Shown here piece by piece: positions 7,251 to 29,315 of a DNA stretch of 31,473 bases (position 1 is the first letter of the stretch; every line of letters starts with the position of its first letter). The stretch lies in assembly GCA_001515955.1 (NCBI GenBank), contig LOES01000062.1:1-31473 (forward strand). The letters run 5' to 3'. The stretch comes from Clostridia bacterium BRH_c25. Lineage in GTDB: Bacteria; Bacillota_A; Clostridia; Lutisporales; Lutisporaceae. Below the pieces are notes generated by a model. The model was not told the origin of the DNA. It made no database searches and worked only from the letters and a program-made list of their open reading frames with translations. Both the position numbers and the translations under genes were made by a program.

Positions 7251-8450
7251 GTGAACTCAAATAGGAATAAGGTAGTAGAGTTTTTTGGCTTGAATAAAAG
7301 CATGGGGGCCATGCTCGTAATGGTAATACTTATTGGACTTGGGGAGAAGATGGCGGAAAGGTTCCTGCCGCTTTATCTTGTGGCAATCGGGGGCTCTATC
7401 TATGCTGTAGGGTTTCTTAATGCGATGGACAATTTGCTGAGTGCGCTGTACTCCTTCCCTGGAGGTTACATTACCGACAAGGTGGGCTATAAGAAGGCCT
7501 TGATGATATTCACACTCATATCACTTTTCGGCTATGCCATCGTTATACTGATACCTACTTGGCAGGCGGTACTTGTAGGCTCGGTGTTTTTTATCGCATG
7601 GACGGCAATATCTCTTCCTGCAATTATGAGCATGGTCTCAAAGACTGCCAGGAAGGAAAAAAGGACAATGGGAGTGTCGGTACATTCCCTTGTAAGAAGG
7701 ATTCCTATGGCCTTGGGGCCTGTAATAGGCGGTGTATTAATTGCATTGTACGGAAAGATATCGGGAATAAGGATAGCCTTTGGAGTGGCTTTTATATTAG
7801 GACTGGCAGCGCTGTTTTTTCAATACTATTTTATGGAGGATGACAAGCCTGCAAAAGACCCGAAGCCTGTAAGCTTCAGAAATGCTTTGGAGTACTTCAG
7901 TCCATCACTGAGAAACCTTTTGGTATCTGATATACTTATAAGGTTTGCAGAGCAGATACCCTATGCATTTGTAGTAATATGGGTTGTCGAGAATAATGGT
8001 CTTTCACCCCTCCAGTTCGGTATACTCACTACAATTGAAATGGTTACAGCATTGCTTGTATATATTCCGGTTGCCTATATGGCTGATAAATACGGCAAAA
8101 AGCCCTTTGTACTTATCACCTTCGGCTTCTTTACGCTGTTCCCCTTGATATTGTACTTTTCAAGAAGCTTCTGGGTTTTTGTGCTGGCATTTATAATCAG
8201 AGGACTTAAGGAGTTTGGAGAACCGACAAGAAAGGCTCTGATAATGGACCTTGCGCCGGAGGATGCTAAAGCAAGGACCTTTGGCACTTACTACCTTTTA
8301 AGAGATATTGTAGTCTCCACAGCAGCTCTAAGCAGTGCGTACTTATGGAATATCTCACCGCAAGTGAATTTTTTGACTGCTTTTGCTTTTGGACTTATAG
8401 GGATGATATGGTTCGCTATATTTGGCAGGGATTTACAGCTGAATAAATGA
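7251..8450 (+). CDS. Major facilitator superfamily transporter, probable exporter
   Basis: A 399-residue integral membrane protein with about 12 hydrophobic segments in two halves separated by a charged middle loop (EDDKPAKDPKPVSFRN, near 196-211). The MFS motif A, GGYITDKVGYKKAL, lies between the second and third segments, and a second copy, MADKYGKKPFVL, is in the C-terminal half. The start is GTG 7251 behind GAGGTG. Membership of the drug/proton antiporter-type branch is inferred from the motif and the MarR regulator next door; the substrate cannot be named. It ends close to a strong hairpin shared with the convergent murC end. Confidence 0.9.
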   Translation: MNSNRNKVVEFFGLNKSMGAMLVMVILIGLGEKMAERFLPLYLVAIGGSIYAVGFLNAMDNLLSALYSFPGGYITDKVGYKKALMIFTLISLFGYAIVILIPTWQAVLVGSVFFIAWTAISLPAIMSMVSKTARKEKRTMGVSVHSLVRRIPMALGPVIGGVLIALYGKISGIRIAFGVAFILGLAALFFQYYFMEDDKPAKDPKPVSFRNALEYFSPSLRNLLVSDILIRFAEQIPYAFVVIWVVENNGLSPLQFGILTTIEMVTALLVYIPVAYMADKYGKKPFVLITFGFFTLFPLILYFSRSFWVFVLAFIIRGLKEFGEPTRKALIMDLAPEDAKARTFGTYYLLRDIVVSTAALSSAYLWNISPQVNFLTAFAFGLIGMIWFAIFGRDLQLNK

Positions 8451-22734: not shown

Positions 22735-22853
22735 CCGGGCAATGGGCAAGAGGCAAGGGGCAATAGGTTCAAGCCAGGCTTCGAAGCTCATCCCGAATTC
22801 CCATTGCCTATTGCCTATCGCCCATTGCCCGGAAGATTGCAGCGCAATCTTCC
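22735..22853. repeat. Palindromic element A with GGCAATG-type heptamer arms
   Basis: The left arm 22735-22767 and right arm 22800-22832 are inverted copies (28 of 33 positions agree). Both are built of tandem 7-base words of the type GGCAATG, GGCAAGA, GGCAATA, GGCGATA. The 32-base centre contains GCCAGGCTTCGAAGCT. A separate perfect hairpin with GAAGATTGC/GCAATCTTC arms and loop AGC (22832-22852) directly abuts the right end. An open frame across it has no homology or ribosome binding site. Confidence 0.85.
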
Positions 22854-22914
22854 ATTTGACATAATGTAAGAATTTTAGTGTGTTTTATTTATTATCTATA
22901 ATTTACAAAATTGT

Positions 22915-22944
22915 GTATAAAAAAACCTAGTTGGTAAAATAATA
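22915..22944 (+). promoter_or_regulatory. Candidate sigma-G promoter of spoVT
   Basis: GTATA (22915-22919) fits the sigma-G -35 GHATR. After 18 bases AATAATA (22938-22944) differs from CATWHTA only at the first base. spoVT is a sigma-G gene in B. subtilis. Confidence 0.45.
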
Positions 22945-22988
22945 ACCATTACAAACACTTATGTAAATCAAAAAAAGGAGGGTATAAG

Positions 22989-23546
22989 TTGAAAGCAACC
23001 GGAATCGTAAGAAGGATAGATGACCTTGGAAGAGTTGTAATACCGAAAGAAATAAGAAGAACTCTGCGTATAAGAGAAGGAGATCCGCTGGAAATATTCA
23101 CGGATAGGGAAGGCGAAGTCATACTTAAAAAATACTCCCCAATAGGTGAACTCAGTGATTTTTCAAAAGAGTATGTAGAGTCTCTCCATAGTTCACTGGA
23201 GCATATAACATGTATATCTGACAGAGATACCATTATTGCGGTTGCAGGTGCACCGAAAAAAGAACTGCTGGATAAAAGAGTCAGCCCTTCTCTGGAAAAG
23301 ATAATGGAAGACAAAACAACAGTTGTTTTAAGCCTGACCGGAGAAAACAAGATGATAAATATTTCTGCGGATGAAGAGGGTGCACCCAAGTACACCACAG
23401 GTGTAGTAGCACCGATTATGACTCAAGGTGATTCTATAGGAGCAGTCTTATTACTTTCTAAAGATCCAAACATACAAATGGGAGAACTCGAAGTCAAACT
23501 GTCGGAAACTGCAGCCAGCTTCTTAGGAAAGCAAATGGAGCAGTAA
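22989..23546 (+). CDS. spoVT: Stage V sporulation protein T, AbrB-family transition regulator
   Basis: A 185-residue forespore transcription regulator (B. subtilis SpoVT is 178). Residues 1-50 are the AbrB-type swapped-hairpin DNA-binding domain (ATGIVRRIDDLGRVVIPKEI, RIREGDPLEIF). Residues 55-183 are a GAF-like sensor domain (ISDRDTIIAVAGAPKKEL, GVVAPIMTQGDSIGAVLLLS). It tunes sigma-G genes, spore resistance and germination in relatives. The start is TTG 22989, eight bases after AAAAGGAGG. A candidate sigma-G promoter precedes it and a terminator follows. Between the preceding terminator and its promoter lies repeat element A. Confidence 0.96.
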   Translation: MKATGIVRRIDDLGRVVIPKEIRRTLRIREGDPLEIFTDREGEVILKKYSPIGELSDFSKEYVESLHSSLEHITCISDRDTIIAVAGAPKKELLDKRVSPSLEKIMEDKTTVVLSLTGENKMINISADEEGAPKYTTGVVAPIMTQGDSIGAVLLLSKDPNIQMGELEVKLSETAASFLGKQMEQ

Positions 23547-23560
23547 TGAGCGTTTGGCAA

Positions 23561-23592
23561 AAGTAGTAGTCTTAGAGGCTGCTACTTTTTTT
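23561..23592 (+). terminator. Terminator of spoVT
   Basis: AAGTAGTAGTC (23561-23571) pairs with GGCTGCTACTT (23577-23587), two G-U pairs, five-base loop, followed by a run of T to 23592. Confidence 0.85.
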
Positions 23593-23639
23593 ATTTTTGT
23601 TCTACTATCCCCAAATAGTGTATATTCTAAAAATATATA

Positions 23640-23747
23640 GATGCGAGATGCGAGATACGGGATACGAGAAGGTTCCGTGGTTTCTGTACCAAGACCCGTA
23701 AGGAATACCCCAACTTCTCTCGCATCTCGTATCTCGTATCTCGCATC
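23640..23747. repeat. Palindromic element B with GATGCGA/GATACGA heptamer arms
   Basis: The left arm 23640-23671 reads GATGCGA GATGCGA GATACGG GATACGA then GAAG. The right arm 23714-23747 is the inverse (TCTCGCA, TCTCGTA, TCTCGTA, TCTCGCA-type words) with only a few mismatches and a two-base indel. The 42-base centre includes AAGGTTCCGTGGTTTC at its left and AAGGAATACCCC at its right. It lies between the spoVT terminator and the flippase gene, in an otherwise gene-free stretch of about 350 bases whose last 130 bases are AT-rich and probably hold the flippase promoter. Confidence 0.85.
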
Positions 23748-23903
23748 TTCAGTATTTTGCGATTTAACTATGGAAATTTGGCAATATTAACAATGGAGAG
23801 TAAAATTGAATAATAAGGAAGTATATCATAAGAAATATATTATGTTAAAATGTACTATATGTGTTAAAATAATTATGTTTAAGTTATTTTGGGGAGGTCG
23901 CAA

Positions 23904-25505
23904 ATGAGTTCTAGAAAGCAATCATTTATAAGAGGAGCCGCGATACTTGCAATAGCGGGTATCATATCAAAGGCTCTGGGCGCGATATATAGGATACCTT
24001 TAGGCAGGATAATAGGTTCTGAAGGCATGGCGTATTACCAGACCGCATATGAGCTTTATATACTGATGCTGACAATTTCCGCTTACTCCATACCTATAGC
24101 AATATCCAAGCTGGTGTCGGAGAAAATAGAGCTGGGAAGGCGGGATGAAGCACACAAAACCTTTAAGGTAGCGCTTACATTAATAGCATTTTTAGGCATA
24201 ACGCTGTCGGCATTATTATTTTTAAATGCCCAAGGCTTTGTATCGGCTGTAAAGAACCCCAGAGCATATCTGGCTGTACTTTGTGTCGCACCGGCAATAT
24301 TCACCGTATCCTTAAGCGGAGCCTTCAGGGGATACTTCCAGGGCATGCAGAACATGACTCCAAGTGGAGTATCACAGGTGACGGAGCAGCTTGCCCGCGT
24401 GGTCTTCGGCTTCATACTGGCTATAGTATTTCTGCCATTAGGCTATGAGGCTGCAGCCGGAGGGGCAGTTTTTGGCACCACAATCGGCGGGCTTGTAAGT
24501 TTTCTTACACTCATATATATATACAGAGAAAGAAGAAGTGAGATAAGATTAGGTATACAAGCTTCAGGTAATATGAAAATGGAATCTGCATTAAGCATAG
24601 CAAAGAGGATAGTGATTTTTTCGGTACCTATAACGATTGGCGGCAGTATAATGCCTGTGATGACAGTAATTGATACATTTATCGTTATGGATAGGCTTCA
24701 GTGGGCGGGCTTCTCCCTTGAGACTGCCACCAGCCTGCTGGGACAACTTAAAGGTATGGCAGGAGCTTTTATAAATTTGCCGCAGGTGTTTACGATAGCC
24801 TTGGCGGCAAGCCTTGTCCCGGCAATTTCAGAGTCAATAGCCAGAAATGATTTTAGTGGAGCTGCCAGGAAGTCGGAGCTGGCAATAAGAGTAAGTCTGA
24901 TGGTTGGATTGCCTGCTGCTTTTGGACTTTTTATACTTGCCGATCCTATAATGAAGCTTATGTATCCGGCAGAACCGGCTACTTTGGGAATGGTACTCCG
25001 GTACCTGTCAACTGCAGTAATATTCCTGACCCTTGTCCAGACTATGACAGGAATACTTCAGGGCATGGGGAAGGAAAGAATTCCTGTAAAAAACCTGGTA
25101 ATAGGTGCATTGGTAAAAGTGGTGGTAAGCTATACACTGACTTCAGTGCCTTTTATAAACATAAGAGGTGCAGCTTTAGGTACTGTTGCAGGCTATGCAG
25201 TATCATCAATATTGAATCTGTCTGCAATAATAAAGTATCAAAAGTCCAATATGAGTATAACAAAGATAGTTATGAAGCCTGCAATAGCTACAGGAGCTAT
25301 GATGGCTGCGGCATATTTCAGCTATAGGCTGTTGTTTGAAGCTATAGGCAGAAATTCTGTAGCAACGCTCATAAGTGTTGCATTTGCCGCATTGGTATAT
25401 GTAGTAGTGCTTATACTTATTAAAGGCATTGCTACAGAAGAACTGGAAATGGCCCCAGGGGGCAAAAGGCTTTCAACCATATTGAAGAAAAAGGGACTAT
25501 TATAA
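23904..25505 (+). CDS. SpoVB/MurJ-like polysaccharide or lipid II flippase (YabM type)
   Basis: A 533-residue MOP-superfamily membrane protein with about 14 hydrophobic segments. The N-terminal FIRGAAILAIAGIISKALGAIYRIPLG region (written here by position, 8-34) and the SISE-like PAISESIARND motif near the middle are characteristic of the SpoVB/MurJ branch, which moves lipid-linked cell-wall precursors outward. Its place between spoVT and mazG is that of B. subtilis yabM, a SpoVB paralogue. ATG 23904 is six bases after GGGGAGG; the TTG at 23889 is rejected. Whether it serves vegetative wall or spore cortex synthesis cannot be told. Confidence 0.9.
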   Translation: MSSRKQSFIRGAAILAIAGIISKALGAIYRIPLGRIIGSEGMAYYQTAYELYILMLTISAYSIPIAISKLVSEKIELGRRDEAHKTFKVALTLIAFLGITLSALLFLNAQGFVSAVKNPRAYLAVLCVAPAIFTVSLSGAFRGYFQGMQNMTPSGVSQVTEQLARVVFGFILAIVFLPLGYEAAAGGAVFGTTIGGLVSFLTLIYIYRERRSEIRLGIQASGNMKMESALSIAKRIVIFSVPITIGGSIMPVMTVIDTFIVMDRLQWAGFSLETATSLLGQLKGMAGAFINLPQVFTIALAASLVPAISESIARNDFSGAARKSELAIRVSLMVGLPAAFGLFILADPIMKLMYPAEPATLGMVLRYLSTAVIFLTLVQTMTGILQGMGKERIPVKNLVIGALVKVVVSYTLTSVPFINIRGAALGTVAGYAVSSILNLSAIIKYQKSNMSITKIVMKPAIATGAMMAAAYFSYRLLFEAIGRNSVATLISVAFAALVYVVVLILIKGIATEELEMAPGGKRLSTILKKKGLL

Positions 25506-25510
25506 AGTAA

Positions 25511-25580
25511 AAGGTTCCGGGGTTTCGGGGTGTAGGGGCGCCCATTGGGCGTCCGCTGTGGGGGTGAACAGTGTTCACCC
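25511..25580. repeat. Element D: two tandem nine-base hairpins
   Basis: The element begins with AAGGTTCCGGGGTTTC (25511-25526). Two hairpins of the same build follow. The first is GGGCGCCCA (25536-25544), one base, TGGGCGTCC. The second is GGGTGAACA (25562-25570), one base, TGTTCACCC (25572-25580). Both are preceded by a G-run (GTAGGGG, GTGGGGG). It fills the 107 bases between the flippase and mazG genes. Confidence 0.75.
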
Positions 25581-25612
25581 AGATGAAGCAAAAGAAAAGA
25601 GGCGAAAAATAT

Positions 25613-27070
25613 ATGCCAGAGATAACTATTGTGGGACTTGGACCAGGTGACTACAGGCAGCTGAGCTTGGAAGCCCTTGAGATTATAAAGGGTGCAGAGA
25701 CCTTGGTTCTGAGGACTGAGAAGCATCCTGTGGTAGATCGTATCAGAGAATCAGGCATCAGCTTTACATGCTGCGATGATATTTATGACAGCGGGGAATC
25801 CTTTGATGAGACTTATGAGAGGATTAGCGAACGTGTATTAAGTCTTTGCAGTGAAAAGGGCAAAGTAGTATATGCCGTACCGGGACATCCCCTGGTAGCG
25901 GAAAAGAGCGTTGAGCTTATTGCAGCAAAAGCGGGAGAGAATATAAAAGTCAGCATAATCCCTGCGCTGAGCTTTATAGATGTTATATTAAGTGTCTTGA
26001 GGATAGATCCGGCCAAAGGACTAAAGATTATTGACGGATTGAGCATCAGAACACAGAAGCCCGACAAGAACTGCGGGAATATTATTACACAGGTATATGA
26101 CAGGCTGGTGGCTTCGGAAGTAAAACTCATGCTAATGGAATACTATATGGATGACTTTGAAATCTGTGTTATAAGGGCTGCCGGAGTGGAAAATCTGGAG
26201 CGTATCGAGAGGATGCCACTCTATGAGCTGGATAGGATAGAATGGGTGGATTACCTGACAAGTGTCTATATCCCGCCTGCATTGGAGAAAGCCAGATATA
26301 AGAGCTTTGAAGAGTTGGTGGAGCTTATGCAGAGCTTGAGAAGCGAGAATGGCTGCCCTTGGGATAAGGAGCAGACAAGAGAATCCTTAAGGCCATACCT
26401 TCTTGAGGAAACCTATGAGGTGCTGGATGCCATTGAGAAGGATGATCTTGATCTTTTGGTTGAGGAGCTTGGAGACCTGCTGCTTCAGGTTGTGTTCCAC
26501 TCTCAGATAGCCAAGGAAGATGGAGAGTTTGATATTGGAGAAGTTATTACTAACATAGTAAATAAGCTGATAATCAGACACCCTCATGTTTTCGGTGATG
26601 TCAAGGCTACAAGTGAAAGCGGAGCTTTAAAGAGCTGGGAAGCATCAAAGCGCAAGTATAAAGGCATAGATACATTTACACAGACCTTGGTGGATATCCC
26701 TGAAATCCTACCAGCATTGATGAGAGCTTACAAGGTACAGCAGAAGGCGGCCCTGGCAGGTTTTGACTGGGACAACATAGAAGATGCATTTTCAAAGGTT
26801 TATGAAGAGGCTGAAGAGGTCAGGGAAGTATATAAAACCGGAGAAAATGGCATAATAGAAGGAGAAATCGGGGATTTACTGTTTTCGGTTGTTAATATAT
26901 CCAGGTTTTTAAAGATCCAACCTGAACTCGCGCTTAGAGCTACTACGGAAAAATTTATAAAAAGATTTAGGTATATTGAGGAAACGGCCTTGCAATCTGG
27001 GAAAAAACTTGATAAAATGAGCTTGCAGGAGATGGATAAGCTCTGGAACGAAGCAAAACAGCAAGTTTAG
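25613..27070 (+). CDS. mazG: Bifunctional tetrapyrrole-methylase-like/MazG nucleotide pyrophosphohydrolase (YabN type)
   Basis: A 485-residue fusion. Residues 1-220 resemble the SAM-dependent tetrapyrrole methylase fold, with GLGPGD at 8-13 and VPGHPLVAE near 87-95. From about 225 there are two MazG domains with the magnesium-binding EExxE/ExxD pattern (ENGCPWDKEQT, LLEETYEVLDAIEK, EELGDLLLQVVFHSQ, then EEAEEVREVYK and EIGDLLFSVVN). MazG hydrolyses nucleoside triphosphates to monophosphates, often cleaning non-canonical nucleotides. The fused methylase-like domain has no established role. Start ATG 25613, behind AAAGAGGCGA, agrees with the family's MPxITIVGLGPGD beginning; the frame extension to 25571 starts inside a hairpin. 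Same fusion and position as B. subtilis yabN. Confidence 0.94.
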   Translation: MPEITIVGLGPGDYRQLSLEALEIIKGAETLVLRTEKHPVVDRIRESGISFTCCDDIYDSGESFDETYERISERVLSLCSEKGKVVYAVPGHPLVAEKSVELIAAKAGENIKVSIIPALSFIDVILSVLRIDPAKGLKIIDGLSIRTQKPDKNCGNIITQVYDRLVASEVKLMLMEYYMDDFEICVIRAAGVENLERIERMPLYELDRIEWVDYLTSVYIPPALEKARYKSFEELVELMQSLRSENGCPWDKEQTRESLRPYLLEETYEVLDAIEKDDLDLLVEELGDLLLQVVFHSQIAKEDGEFDIGEVITNIVNKLIIRHPHVFGDVKATSESGALKSWEASKRKYKGIDTFTQTLVDIPEILPALMRAYKVQQKAALAGFDWDNIEDAFSKVYEEAEEVREVYKTGENGIIEGEIGDLLFSVVNISRFLKIQPELALRATTEKFIKRFRYIEETALQSGKKLDKMSLQEMDKLWNEAKQQV

Positions 27071-27098
27071 AGCAAATAGGAAAGTAGAACTATAAGAA

Positions 27099-27157
27099 TG
27101 AACCATTTGTCCTAAAAGAGCTTCAAAAAAAGTATCCATAGTCACAAAAATGGTTCA
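27099..27157. repeat. Ten-base inverted repeat between mazG and HU gene
   Basis: TGAACCATTT (27099-27108) is the exact complement of AAATGGTTCA (27148-27157), 39 bases apart. There is no T-run, so it is not a simple terminator. It could be an operator upstream of the HU gene or an RNA stem. Confidence 0.5.
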
Positions 27158-27279
27158 AATTAAGCCTTTTATGCAAAAAAAGATAAAAATTAGCGGAAAA
27201 AAGAAGGATTTTTGCGAAAGAGGTAGAATACCCATAAACAGTAAATATTTCCTACAAAATATAAAATGGAGGGAAGAAA

Positions 27280-27558
27280 ATGAATAAATCAGATCTTATC
27301 AGCAAAATGGCTGAAAAAAGTGCAATGACAAAGAAAGATTCCGAAAAAGCTCTTAAAGCACTGATAGAAAGTGTAGAAGAAGCTCTTGCAAAAGGTGACA
27401 AGGTTCAATTAGTTGGCTTTGGAACTTTTGAAGTTAAAGAAAGAAAAGCAAGAGTCGGCAGAAATCCAAGAACCAGAGAAGAGATCAAAATACCAGCATC
27501 AAAGGCTCCAATATTCAAAGCTGGCAAAGATCTTAAGGATCTCGTAAATAAGAAGTAA
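27280..27558 (+). CDS. hup: Histone-like DNA-binding protein HU
   Basis: A 92-residue HU, the usual 90-92. It has the N-terminal helices ([25 protein letters not shown]), the [13 protein letters not shown] strand, the DNA-inserting arm with [17 protein letters not shown] (including the conserved Pro of the arm), and [12 protein letters not shown] at the end. It bends and packages DNA as a dimer. ATG 27280 follows GGAGGGAAG. It has its own strong terminator, so it is mostly a single-gene unit with 210 bases of AT-rich leader. HU in this slot, between mazG and rqcP, is common in Clostridia. Confidence 0.97.
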
Positions 27559-27570
27559 GTACATATTTAA

Positions 27571-27600
27571 GAAAAATCAGGCTTTAGGGCCTGATTTTTC
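27571..27600 (+). terminator. Terminator of the HU gene
   Basis: A 12-base perfect stem: GAAAAATCAGGC (27571-27582) with GCCTGATTTTTC (27589-27600), six-base loop, with T5 in the descending arm. Confidence 0.88.
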
Positions 27601-27623
27601 GCTATCAGGAGGATGTGAGTATA

Positions 27624-27866
27624 TTGAGACTTGACAAGTATCTAAAGAATTCCAGGCTTATAAAAAGAAGAACAGTAGCCAAGGACGCCTGCGAAGGCGA
27701 GAAGGTTTATCTAAATGGCAAGCAGGCAAAGCCAAGCGCAGAGGTCAAGGTGGGAGATACAATTGAGATTGTGTTCGGCGAAAAAAGCATAAAGGCTGAA
27801 ATCGTAGATATATCTGATAACGCATCAAAAGCAGCAGCAAGAGAAATGTACAGGCTTATTGATTAA
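27624..27866 (+). CDS. rqcP: S4-domain RNA-binding protein RqcP (YabO)
   Basis: An 80-residue protein that is almost entirely an S4 RNA-binding domain (RLDKYLKNSRLIKRRTVAK, VYLNGKQAKPSAEVKVGDTIEI). In Bacillus, RqcP works with RqcH on 60S-like stalled 50S subunits, supporting alanine-tailing in ribosome quality control. The start chosen is TTG 27624, giving the family's MRLDKYLK beginning, 11 bases after AGGAGG; a GTG at 27615 would sit only two bases from the ribosome binding site. Its stop codon lies at the base of a long hairpin (27865-27918). Confidence 0.92.
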   Translation: MRLDKYLKNSRLIKRRTVAKDACEGEKVYLNGKQAKPSAEVKVGDTIEIVFGEKSIKAEIVDISDNASKAAAREMYRLID

Positions 27867-27969
27867 GTGCTTTTCAACACAACAAATTTCCATTTATTCA
27901 AGTGTTGAAAATGCACTTCATTGATGTTGTGCCTCTACAGGATTAGCAATACTTTCTGTGAAGAGGCAC
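27865..27969. other. Two consecutive strong hairpins after rqcP
   Basis: Hairpin 1: AAGTGCTTTTCAACAC (27865-27880) with 27902-27918, one bulged base. Hairpin 2: GTGCCTCTACAG (27929-27940) with CTGTGAAGAGGCAC (27956-27969), a two-base bulge. Neither is followed by a T-run. The remaining 150 bases to yabP hold the sigma-E promoter candidate. Confidence 0.6.
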
Positions 27970-27991
27970 ATACCATCCATGGTTAATTTAT

Positions 27992-28019
27992 TCATATTTG
28001 CGGTCCCCCAGCATATAAA
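27992..28019 (+). promoter_or_regulatory. Candidate sigma-E promoter of yabP
   Basis: TCATATT (27992-27998) matches the sigma-E -35 KMATATT completely. After 13 bases CATATAAA (28012-28019) matches six of eight in CATACAHT. yabP/yabQ are sigma-E genes in B. subtilis. Confidence 0.6.
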
Positions 28020-28118
28020 TATACAAATCGCTTATATGCCGATATAAATCGCACTGGAAGATTGCAGATGAAGAAGTAAATAAAGGATATAGTGCAAAAC
28101 ACATTGGGGGGGGTTTAA

Positions 28119-28406
28119 ATGGAAGAAAAGAAGCTAATAAAGTCAAAACCTCACAATATTACGATAGAAGGACGGGAAAGGCTTATAGTTACCGGTGTCA
28201 GAGATGTAACAAGTTTTGATGACAATACGGTCGCATTGGATACTGAAGCAGGAGGCCTCACTATAAAAGGAACAGATTTGCATATTAACAGGTTGAGTGT
28301 AGATGATGGAAACTTGTATGTGGAGGGGTATATAATTTCCTGCATATACAACGACAAAATGGATGTCAAAAGAACCGGTAGTTTTTTGAGCAATATATTC
28401 AAATGA
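28119..28406 (+). CDS. yabP: Sporulation protein YabP
   Basis: A 95-residue beta-rich protein of the YabP/YqfC family. It has an 'HNITIEGRERLIVTGVRDVTSFDD' beginning and the typical LDTEAGGLTIKGTDLHINRLSVDDGNLYVEG core at about 44-74 (given by position; the hallmark words are TIKGTDLHI and LYVEG). In B. subtilis it is needed for spore coat/cortex formation, made in the mother cell. ATG 28119 follows an unusually long run of eight G, GGGGGGGG, seven bases upstream. A good sigma-E promoter candidate lies about 100 bases before. yabQ follows after 120 bases. Confidence 0.93.
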   Translation: MEEKKLIKSKPHNITIEGRERLIVTGVRDVTSFDDNTVALDTEAGGLTIKGTDLHINRLSVDDGNLYVEGYIISCIYNDKMDVKRTGSFLSNIFK

Positions 28407-28526
28407 AGCTTGATACAATCAATAATAGCTTTCTGTCCTTAAAAATGGCATGGTTGATTACAGCTTGGCGATGTAGTTAACTATGCCGTTTATATCTGAC
28501 AAACTGTGTGCTGAGGAGGTCTTTTA

Positions 28527-29054
28527 GTGGAAACCGTTCAATTCCAGAGTTATGTATTCTCCTATTCAGTGTACGGGGGAATACTCATAGGTATTTTATA
28601 TGATATTTACAGAGCCATAAAGGGAAAGAAGAAAAGTGAAAGGTTGATTACATCCTTATGGGATGCACTATTTCTTTTATCTGTATTCTTCGTTGTGATA
28701 TGGGCGGTTTTTTCAAGCAGCTACGGAGATATCAGAGCTTATGTTTTCATAGGCTTCCTGGTAGGGTTCTATTTATTCGAAAAGCTTCTTGGTAGGATTG
28801 TGGTAGGGGTATTTCATTTTTTGTACAGAAAAGCAGCGCTTTTTTTAAAGAAAACCAATAATATTCTTGCCTTGCCTGTTAAGCTGCTTTGTTCCTTTCT
28901 CTACAGATGCTATAACAGCTTTATACATATATTGGGGAGAGGAAGAATCAGGTTAAGAAAAGCGCGAAAATTGCCGAAACAAGTAATATACGACTATAAG
29001 AAGTATTATGGACTGATAGTGAAAAGAAAAAGCAAAAAAGAGCATGGAAATTAA
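28527..29054 (+). CDS. yabQ: Spore cortex membrane protein YabQ
   Basis: A 175-residue membrane protein. The family-typical start (YVFSYSVYGGILIGILYDIYRAIKG) places a first membrane segment at about 8-25 followed by the conserved DIYRA. Further segments lie at about 44-63 and 70-90, and the C-terminal 70 residues are very basic. In Bacillus YabQ sits in the membranes around the forespore and is required for cortex. The start is GTG 28527, six bases after GAGGAGGT. The yabP-yabQ gap has a hairpin GGCATGGTT (28447-28455)/AACTATGCC (28479-28487). Confidence 0.88.
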   Translation: METVQFQSYVFSYSVYGGILIGILYDIYRAIKGKKKSERLITSLWDALFLLSVFFVVIWAVFSSSYGDIRAYVFIGFLVGFYLFEKLLGRIVVGVFHFLYRKAALFLKKTNNILALPVKLLCSFLYRCYNSFIHILGRGRIRLRKARKLPKQVIYDYKKYYGLIVKRKSKKEHGN

Positions 29055-29116
29055 ATTGCTTATTTAAGGCTTCATCTGAAAGGATTTTCGTACCTACCGT
29101 CGAATATATATAAGAA

Positions 29117-29315
29117 TGCGCACTAGCGTGCGCAGATGCGAGATACGAGAGTTAGGGCCAGGCTACGAAGTTATGGGGGACGGATAACAGGTCACACAGG
29201 TCTGTTACACGGAATCGCTATGCGATTACCCGTTACTTAGCTTGAAAGGAATACCCGAGCTTTTCTCGAATCTCGTATCTCGTATCTCGAGTCTGAAGAA
29301 TGCTTCGCATTCTTC
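29117..29315. repeat. Palindromic element C with GATACGA heptamer arms and nested hairpins
   Basis: The left arm 29135-29150 has two words (GATGCGA GATACGA). The right arm 29264-29293 has four (TCTCGAA, TCTCGTA, TCTCGTA, TCTCGAG). Hairpins flank both ends: TGCGCAC/GTGCGCA at 29117-29134, and GAAGAATGC/GCATTCTTC with loop TTC at 29295-29315. A third, AATCGC/GCGATT with loop TAT (29213-29227), is in the 113-base centre, which also holds GCCAGGCTACGAAG and AAGGAATACCC. It fills most of the 330 bases between yabQ and the divIC-like gene; the rest is AT-rich. Confidence 0.85.

Follow-up and report, generated by a model that had tools for sequence, protein, structure and literature searches.

Do the repeats that lie between the genes of a clostridial genome form one family built from interchangeable parts, and if so, what orders the parts and what moves them? 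The question is raised by a contig of Clostridia bacterium BRH_c25 (GCA_001515955.1, LOES01000062.1), whose whole analysed stretch of 31,473 nt we call the window, and in which four elements stand out between genes: A (22735–22853), B (23639–23748), C (29117–29315) and D (25511–25580). A sequence-only reading of the window had suggested that all four belong to a single repeat family put together from exchangeable modules, the heptamer arms being one type of module. For A, B and C this proposal holds: they belong to a real mosaic and are probably copies of a non-autonomous intergenic element family of a clostridial lineage, with D set apart as a pair of repetitive extragenic palindromes (REPs). 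Genomes used for comparison are numbered with G and fetched loci with L; G001 is the genome of the closest relative (locus L001).

Cores, arrays and module order

Copies of the family follow a grammar of terminal palindrome, tandem-heptamer array, L-core, interchangeable cargo, R-core, array and terminal palindrome, which is complete in C and partial in many copies. An end was defined as a heptamer array facing either L-core (about TTAGGGCNGGGCTTCGAAG) or R-core (CCCNNAAGGAATACCC), and reading inward from 72 distinct GAGATAC-class arrays we met L-core at 24 and R-core at 25. The L-core pattern, with up to four substitutions, occurred beside these 24 of 72 real arrays compared to 53 of 3,600 shuffled flanks. 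The context AAGGAATACCC, with one substitution allowed, was found 54 times in the window and the fetched loci, mostly of the genus, and 22 of these occurrences lie near a GAGATAC-class array. Whether module order follows a rule, a point raised by the sequence-only reading, is answered by their polarity: in 21 of the 22 the array is downstream of R-core on the same strand, 19 of these at a distance of 6–7 nt. Exact R-core is present at 89 sites in 16 of 22 genomes of the order, compared to 15 sites in nine genomes for the reversed control. We fetched 88 distinct sites with at most one substitution and counted an array where one of score at least 9 began within 60 nt downstream, which gave a period-7 array at 49, a period-8 array at 4 and neither at 35. 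The resulting 53 of 88 divide into 22 of 34 in the window and genus, where sites were partly fetched by array similarity in a way that favours the count, and 31 of 54 outside the genus, where sites were mostly fetched through the core. Random windows from the longer loci reached period 7 at the same score in 21 of 1,220 cases.

The unit that follows R-core changes from copy to copy. In G001 it is CTCGTAT or CTCGCGA/CTAGCGA; G301 alone carries at least three clearly distinct classes (CTGAGTT, CTAGAGG/CCAGAGG and CGCAACT/CGAAACT); and the core is followed by CCTCGTG in G302, TTCCGGC in G008, CGTAGCA in G066 and 8-mers like CCTCGCAA in G009–G011. At L251, L252, L275 and L084 the nearest upstream array belongs to another class, 46–114 nt away, with CTGAGTT on the left and CTCGTAA on the right in L252 and the reverse order in L251; from this closeness we infer that both unlike arrays are part of one element. 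Cores stand in tandem at nine places, with an array of score at least 9 between them at five. Because units differ while their length stays, arms can be unlike and cores recur in tandem, the heptamer arm looks like an exchangeable module that keeps its length and not its sequence, and the length of the heptamer word seems to matter more than its spelling. All heptamers met rotate to CYNR plus NNN, but this was not adopted as a rule, as the pattern by estimate fits about 59% of random 7-mers.

Cargo varies among copies as well, and consists of CCGTG arrays, a GTCATCCTGAACGC module, a REP or nothing. A module like GTCATCCTGAACGCAGTGAAGGATCTTTGACCC is joined to R-core in several copies (L096, L101, L103, L105, L125, L242 and others); words similar to GTCATCCTGAACGCAGTGAAGGATCTTTGACCC are common between genes in many phyla. 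By eye, TCCGTG recurring about every 10 nt makes a second kind of array that serves as cargo before R-core in L084, L112, L245, L248 and L252, the last of which carries it as an inverted pair.

Within the window, pairwise matches were weighed against dinucleotide shuffles of its 25 intergenic regions (4,718 bases). The words quoted in the sequence-only reading lie within one base of where it placed them (GCCAGGCTTCGAAGCT at 22773, GCCAGGCTACGAAGTT at 29157, AAGGAATACCC at 23700 and 29246, AAGGTTCCGTGGTTTC at 23669 and AAGGTTCCGGGGTTTC at 25511), and the sharing it drew from them fares differently from pair to pair. When one mismatch is allowed, 16-mers shared by different regions occupy 12 diagonals compared to 0–4 in 40 shuffles, and of the 43 such pairs listed, 39 join B and C within heptamer arms, one joins B and D and three are AT-rich pairs outside the elements. 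The B–C sharing is therefore far above chance, and the module shared is R-core. The A–C match (14 of 16) falls in the two-mismatch class, with 31 real matches compared to 8–23 in 20 shuffles, and the B–D match (15 of 16) is the only one on its diagonal, at least one such diagonal arising in 21 of 40 shuffles; the window by itself proves neither. It takes relatives to establish the A–C sharing, by way of the L-core that 24 of the 72 arrays face. Since L-core is common to A and C, and R-core to B and C, both the A–C and the B–C matches are true module sharing. A common B–D module was rejected, as a chance-level match joining words of two unrelated modules: the copy in B closes a CCGTG-type module that precedes R-core, a setting seen also in L243 and L245, and the copy in D belongs to a GGTTTCGGGG array that leads up to a REP, an arrangement shared by L144 and L150.

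A, B and C carry tandem-heptamer arms in inverted orientation, 41 nt long at 83% identity in A, 31 nt at 90% in B and 17 nt at 94% in C, and D lacks such arms. Their parts lie on the plus strand, with the terminal palindromes unstranded. In A, a left arm of GGGCAAT/GGGCAAG heptamers (22737–22767; period 7 in Tandem Repeats Finder, inverted repeat) leads into an inner segment (22768–22799) with L-core GCCAGGCTTCGAAGCT at 22773, of the same type as in G001 (L113:34–113), and then into a right arm of inverted heptamers (22800–22830; inverted repeat, period 7 and folding) and a terminal palindrome, GGAAGATTGC AGC GCAATCTTCC (22831–22853; sequence and folding). B opens with a left arm of GATGCGA/GATACGA heptamers (23639–23669; inverted repeat, period 7 and folding), continues with a CCGTG-module remnant, AGGTTCCGTGGTTTCTGTACCAAGA (23670–23694), similar words preceding R-core in G301 (e.g. 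L243, L245 and L248), and ends in R-core CCCGTAAGGAATACCC (23695–23710; core-context scans) followed 7 nt on by a right arm of CTCGTAT/CTCGCAT heptamers (23718–23748; period 7 and core-context scans). C runs from a left terminal palindrome, TGCGCACTAGCGTGCGCA (29117–29134), similar to ones in G001 loci L084, L088 and L104, through a left heptamer array (29134–29150; inverted repeat), L-core GTTAGGGCCAGGCTACGAAGTTAT (29151–29174; L-core pattern search), cargo with inner palindromes (29175–29240) similar to that in G008 locus L109, R-core CTTGAAAGGAATACCC with a diverged 5′ end (29241–29256; core-context scans) and a right array of CTCGAAT/CTCGTAT (29264–29294; period 7 and core-context scan) to a right terminal palindrome, GAAGAATGCTTCGCATTCTTC (29295–29315), of a kind also found after arrays in G001.

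Single-strand DNA folding compared with shuffles is strong for A (z −7.3) and B (z −6.7) and moderate for D (z −4.3); C, folded without its right arm (29117–29262), gives z −2.1, with 4 of 200 shuffles equally good. An automatic search for heptamer-armed hairpins returned three in the window, three in G012 and none in the G001 sample, and was too strict, since L113:34–113 of G001 looks like such a hairpin and was missed. No open frame of at least 80 residues occurs in A, B or C, on which no protein search was made, and inspection of the window by eye finds no GT[AG]G tag at the feet of their arms. An identity as a structured RNA family was rejected, Rfam giving no match for the window at the gathering threshold or for seven loci at E 0.1, and an origin of the arrays from target-site duplications of 7 bp was rejected on the sequence, since direct repeats would be needed and A, B and C have inverted arms.

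Occupancy and turnover of sites in relatives

Syntenic relatives were collected with a MazG protein scan, which returned L001 (80% identity, a Bacillota metagenome-assembled genome), L002, L003, L004 and L005, in all of which gene order is conserved. Inspected by eye, none of the five has the element at its A, B or D site, nor do L001, L003 and L005 at the C site; the L002 contig ends before C, and L004 is partly shown there. Since these syntenic sites of relatives lack the elements, A, B, C and D would most simply be gains in the lineage of the window. Some of the relatives' sites are occupied by other sequence, L005 for instance having an open frame at its B site, and the D site of L001 has only a few bases between the two genes. 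At the A site of L001 (about 7408–7590) a near-repeat of its own, a segment of about 70 nt ending in TGGAAGCCTTTTTTATAAT, stands in place of A.

Element B as query gives 57 match rows in G001 at E ≤ 1, in part because both strands of an array can each give a row, and matches at E ≤ 0.01 in all six genomes of the G001 genus. 15-mers present in at least three intergenic regions number 243 in G001 (378 kb) and 61 in G012 (387 kb), counts that are somewhat favourable in that the sampled contigs were partly picked for holding matches, compared to 0.0 in five shuffles of each; the shuffled control that could have undone the sequence-only reading thus fails to reproduce the sharing. Among periods 4–15, period 7 is the commonest, in small numbers (about three arrays in the window, four in the G001 sample and five in the G012 sample), and 13 of the 15 arrays sampled in G001 and 6 of the 8 in G012 are intergenic. 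Copies are many in some genomes, such as G001 and G301, and few in others. Of 291 genomes drawn from the class, 3 contain the exact GAGATAC array word CGAGATACGAGATACGAGAT, each of them a member of the G001 genus, and none contains its reversed control.

One orthologous spacer, between genes read as coaD and ackA, displays turnover: G001 has 7-mers beside a CTTCAAAG core, G012 has CCTCGGAA-like 8-mers, G011 has CCTCGTAA 8-mers and G010 retains a short remnant. In this spacer of G011 (L339) and G010 (L340) the array adjoins the apparent ribosome-binding site GGGAGG of the reverse-strand gene, and its units contain GAGG, as if grown out of the GGGAGG stretch.

A second orthologous comparison concerns a 430-bp composite in G001 that unites a palindrome, an array, R-core and further modules. 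None of the 5 sister genomes has it at the orthologous position, where their gap is 21–77 nt compared to 490–500 nt in G001. The composite is a multi-copy element like a miniature inverted-repeat transposable element (MITE), and its aligned copies exist both with and without the heptamer–core part. At E 1e-6 its representative at L113:9400–9870 matches 49 times in G001 and 34 times in the five sister genomes; the element extends to about 440 bp and by eye ends in AGGAGAA[AG]AATG[TC]GAC and GTCGCATTNTTCTCCT, and over a part of about 180 nt the main copies of G008, G009 and G010 reach 86–92% identity. L101, which holds a copy, gave no match in Rfam.

Element D and the search for a mover

Element D stands apart and is of a known kind: two REPs, tagged GTAG and GTGG, such as are ascribed to HUH transposases of the REP-associated tyrosine transposase (RAYT) type. 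Its inclusion with A, B and C in the sequence-only reading is not supported. On the plus strand, a G-rich degenerate array, AAGGTTCCGGGGTTTCGGGG (25511–25530; period search), similar to arrays before a REP in G012 (L144 and L150), precedes REP 1 (25532–25554), whose GTAG tag (25532–25535) heads an imperfect palindrome with an inner stem of 5 bp; RAYT-type genes in relatives are flanked by GTAG palindromes. REP 2 (25558–25580; sequence and folding) has a GTGG tag (25558–25561) and the palindrome GGGTGAACAGTGTTCACCC, with an 8-bp stem and a 3-nt loop. The canonical REP rule, in the available text of PMC6006769, asks for a GTAG or GTGG tetranucleotide 0–2 nt 5′ of a short, well-paired hairpin, and D has GTGG directly before its 8-bp stem and GTAG before a longest unbroken stem of 5 bp. 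Because both REPs share one orientation, D is a REP pair and not a REPIN, in which two REPs are inverted.

In relatives such palindromes lie beside genes. In G012 the gene of a 162-residue Y1-like protein has GTAGGGGCGAACA.TGTTCGCCC on either side (GTAGGGGCGAACAGTGTTCGCCC at the gene), and GTAG palindromes of other sequence border related genes in G093, G297 (two loci, of which one is truncated where its contig stops) and G005, the stem changing along with the RAYT-like gene. Eleven RAYT-like loci were examined: five, from four genomes, are GTAG-flanked, three are fragments unmatched by the motif and three are of a longer type with GTAG palindromes not in view. Longer RAYT-like genes of 276–283 residues have inverted sequences of TGCCAG/GGTGCCTGGCACC type on both sides (L164, L166 and L168 in G001, L159 in G005).

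The enzyme that might move A, B and C was sought among Y1 transposases and reverse transcriptases. Of 31 Y1 loci taken, 22 had a readable gene and were examined and 9 were not examinable; in none of the 22 does the core or a strong period-7 array lie within 260 nt of the gene. Of the 22 family genomes, 17 have a PF01797 match, which in 16 of them exceeds the cut-off, and the presence of PF01797 does not follow the core: G009, G208, G004 and G003 have the core and lack PF01797, and G002, G093, G297, G298 and G005 have PF01797 and lack the exact core. A Y1 transposase as mover of the core family was rejected on both counts. A reverse transcriptase or retro-element was rejected likewise, since PF00078 does not track the core and was found in none of the six genus genomes and in 8 of 22 family genomes, drafts in which absence is not absolute. 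The tracking gene that the sequence-only reading had envisaged was thus not met in either enzyme family, and in a search of these two families no parent transposon sharing terminal inverted repeats with A, B and C came to light.

Rival readings and known repeats

The family has spread and its modules are ordered; how this came about can be outlined as follows. Copies would have spread by transposition, with an enzyme acting in trans, and modules may combine when one element inserts into or beside another. Arrays would arise and be rewritten through replication slippage with a 7-nt step beside the core, and slippage is the likely source of the arrays themselves. Several observations weigh against this account. 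The mover enzyme was not found in a search that covered only Y1 transposases and reverse transcriptases, and no Y1 gene among the 22 adjoins the repeats. Neither core is present at 23 of the 72 GAGATAC-class arrays, and 35 of 88 core sites are followed by no array that reaches the threshold, including all six of G003, G208, G299 and G300, so that some R-core matches may be chance; conversely, G298 has an array and no exact core. Over the 53 core sites with an array the gap is looser, 1–11 nt, with 29 of 53 at 6–7 nt, the polarity rests on the genus, as elsewhere only the downstream side was searched, and several of the 25 R-core counts are copies of the one G001 composite. No target-site duplication could be defined for A, B and C at the element-free sites of relatives, because the intergenic flanks there are too diverged to set borders.

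A bolder version of the account, which we regard as doubtful, would see a class of small mobile cassettes whose conserved core directs a terminal array set by the length of its unit (7, sometimes 8 nt) and not by its sequence, each insertion or rewriting event then giving the element a fresh heptamer. It would need a length-measuring activity, be it a polymerase step, an HUH or other nuclease or templated synthesis, and we know of no description of one.

It is unlikely that all four elements are of REP/REPIN type and moved by HUH (Y1) transposases of the RAYT/IS200 kind, with the heptamer hairpins as very long REPs. D does fit such a scheme, A and B fold as strong single-strand hairpins and G001 has seven PF01797 matches; yet none of the 22 Y1 genes is flanked by core or heptamer arrays, PF01797 and core mismatch in both directions (in four and five genomes), elements with unlike arms cannot form one long hairpin and the GT[AG]G tag is not seen by eye at the arm feet of A, B and C. 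Slightly less probable still are arrays kept as selected binding sites for a regulator or RNA-binding protein, as proposed in Geobacter and Beggiatoaceae. Opposite-strand pairs of arrays are predicted regulator sites, and TAACTGA repeats lie upstream of start codons, in the available parts of PMC2700814 and PMC4679880, respectively, and the arrays here are likewise largely intergenic in G001 and G012. Copies within a single genome nevertheless have entirely different units, which a single binding protein would hardly explain, and the A, B, C and D sites are not common to syntenic relatives. Orientation relative to neighbouring genes was compared at 75 sites, but a crude open-reading-frame caller put 31 of them inside open frames, so that the comparison carries no weight.

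A reading of the arrays as plain slippage repeats, the cores as ordinary sequence and the mosaic as a coincidence could draw on loci L006–L080, where period 7 occurs at 4.1 per Mb, above every other period from 4 to 15, the five arrays listed falling in two Nitrospirota-type records (four) and a Clostridia record (one). This reading is nonetheless very improbable and already contradicted by the association counts, namely arrays after 53 of 88 cores, the polarity of 21 of 22, the L-core enrichment over shuffled flanks and 243 shared 15-mers compared to 0.0. The least credible reading derives the elements by decay from a single known insertion sequence, for which the G001 composite, a MITE-like repeat carrying the same module, could be cited; against it, the cargo differs between copies (CCGTG arrays, the GTCATCCTGAACGC module, REP or nothing), an open frame of 80 residues is absent from A, B and C (protein search not made) and copies of the composite align both with and without the heptamer–core part.

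Small dispersed repeats of Nostoc punctiforme are said to be short palindromic elements embedded in tandem heptamers, a likeness to the present family. Like the heptameric tandem-repeat class of Geobacter, Nostoc and Xanthomonas, the arrays here are intergenic and built of 7-nt units. Geobacter metallireducens has paired tandem octamer and heptamer elements with one consensus unit per class, read as regulator sites (PMC2700814, available text); they resemble the present family in their tandem 7- and 8-mers, opposite-strand pairs in places, variable distance and tens of copies, whereas here one core joins many different units and forms mosaics with other repeats. The heptameric repeats of Xanthomonas and Nostoc (PMC4692102) and the TAACTGA repeats of Beggiatoaceae (PMC4679880) are similar in being intergenic heptamer arrays, sometimes inverted, but the available text of these sources describes no common core, cassette order or unit exchange. 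Within the same limits, one core with many units, unlike arms and tandem core-plus-array cassettes are not described for the Geobacter, Nostoc, Xanthomonas or Beggiatoaceae repeats. GTAG REPs and RAYT/TnpA-REP proteins, as far as available in PMC3733652, PMC6006769 and PMC3116915 (the last of which also names small dispersed repeats), match D in having tags 5′ of 19-nt palindromes, and differ from A, B and C, which have no tag, measure 100–200 nt, carry tandem-heptamer arms and have no linked Y1 gene that we found. REPs inserted in other repeats and mosaic intergenic regions have already been reported from other taxa in the available part of PMC3733652. MITEs are alike in being short, non-autonomous, multi-copy and in part bounded by terminal palindromes, but for A, B and C no parent transposon, constant terminal inverted repeat or target duplication was found. 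A text search of the literature for heptamer and core strings gave no title that looked relevant among the matches listed, in all of which the three heptamer strings scored 0.

For the heptamer arrays of Geobacter, Nostoc, Xanthomonas and Beggiatoaceae the available literature offers no agreed origin, and in the present family a core marks the sites of arrays. The same core followed by different heptamers in one genome provides a handle on why the unit is seven, and one type of site allows arrays that differ in age and spelling to be compared, to ask which protein or replication step sets the length. The family also illustrates how REPs, arrays and cargo build up intergenic mosaics in uncultured Clostridia; among the literature titles found for these, none names such elements. 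Heptamer arrays of another spelling, AGTCAGA-like, occur in Nitrospirota-type loci (L078:7495–7590 and 7767–7799, L065:14192–14225), one of them with inverted GACTTCT arms, and from the DNA they may lie in frame inside genes.

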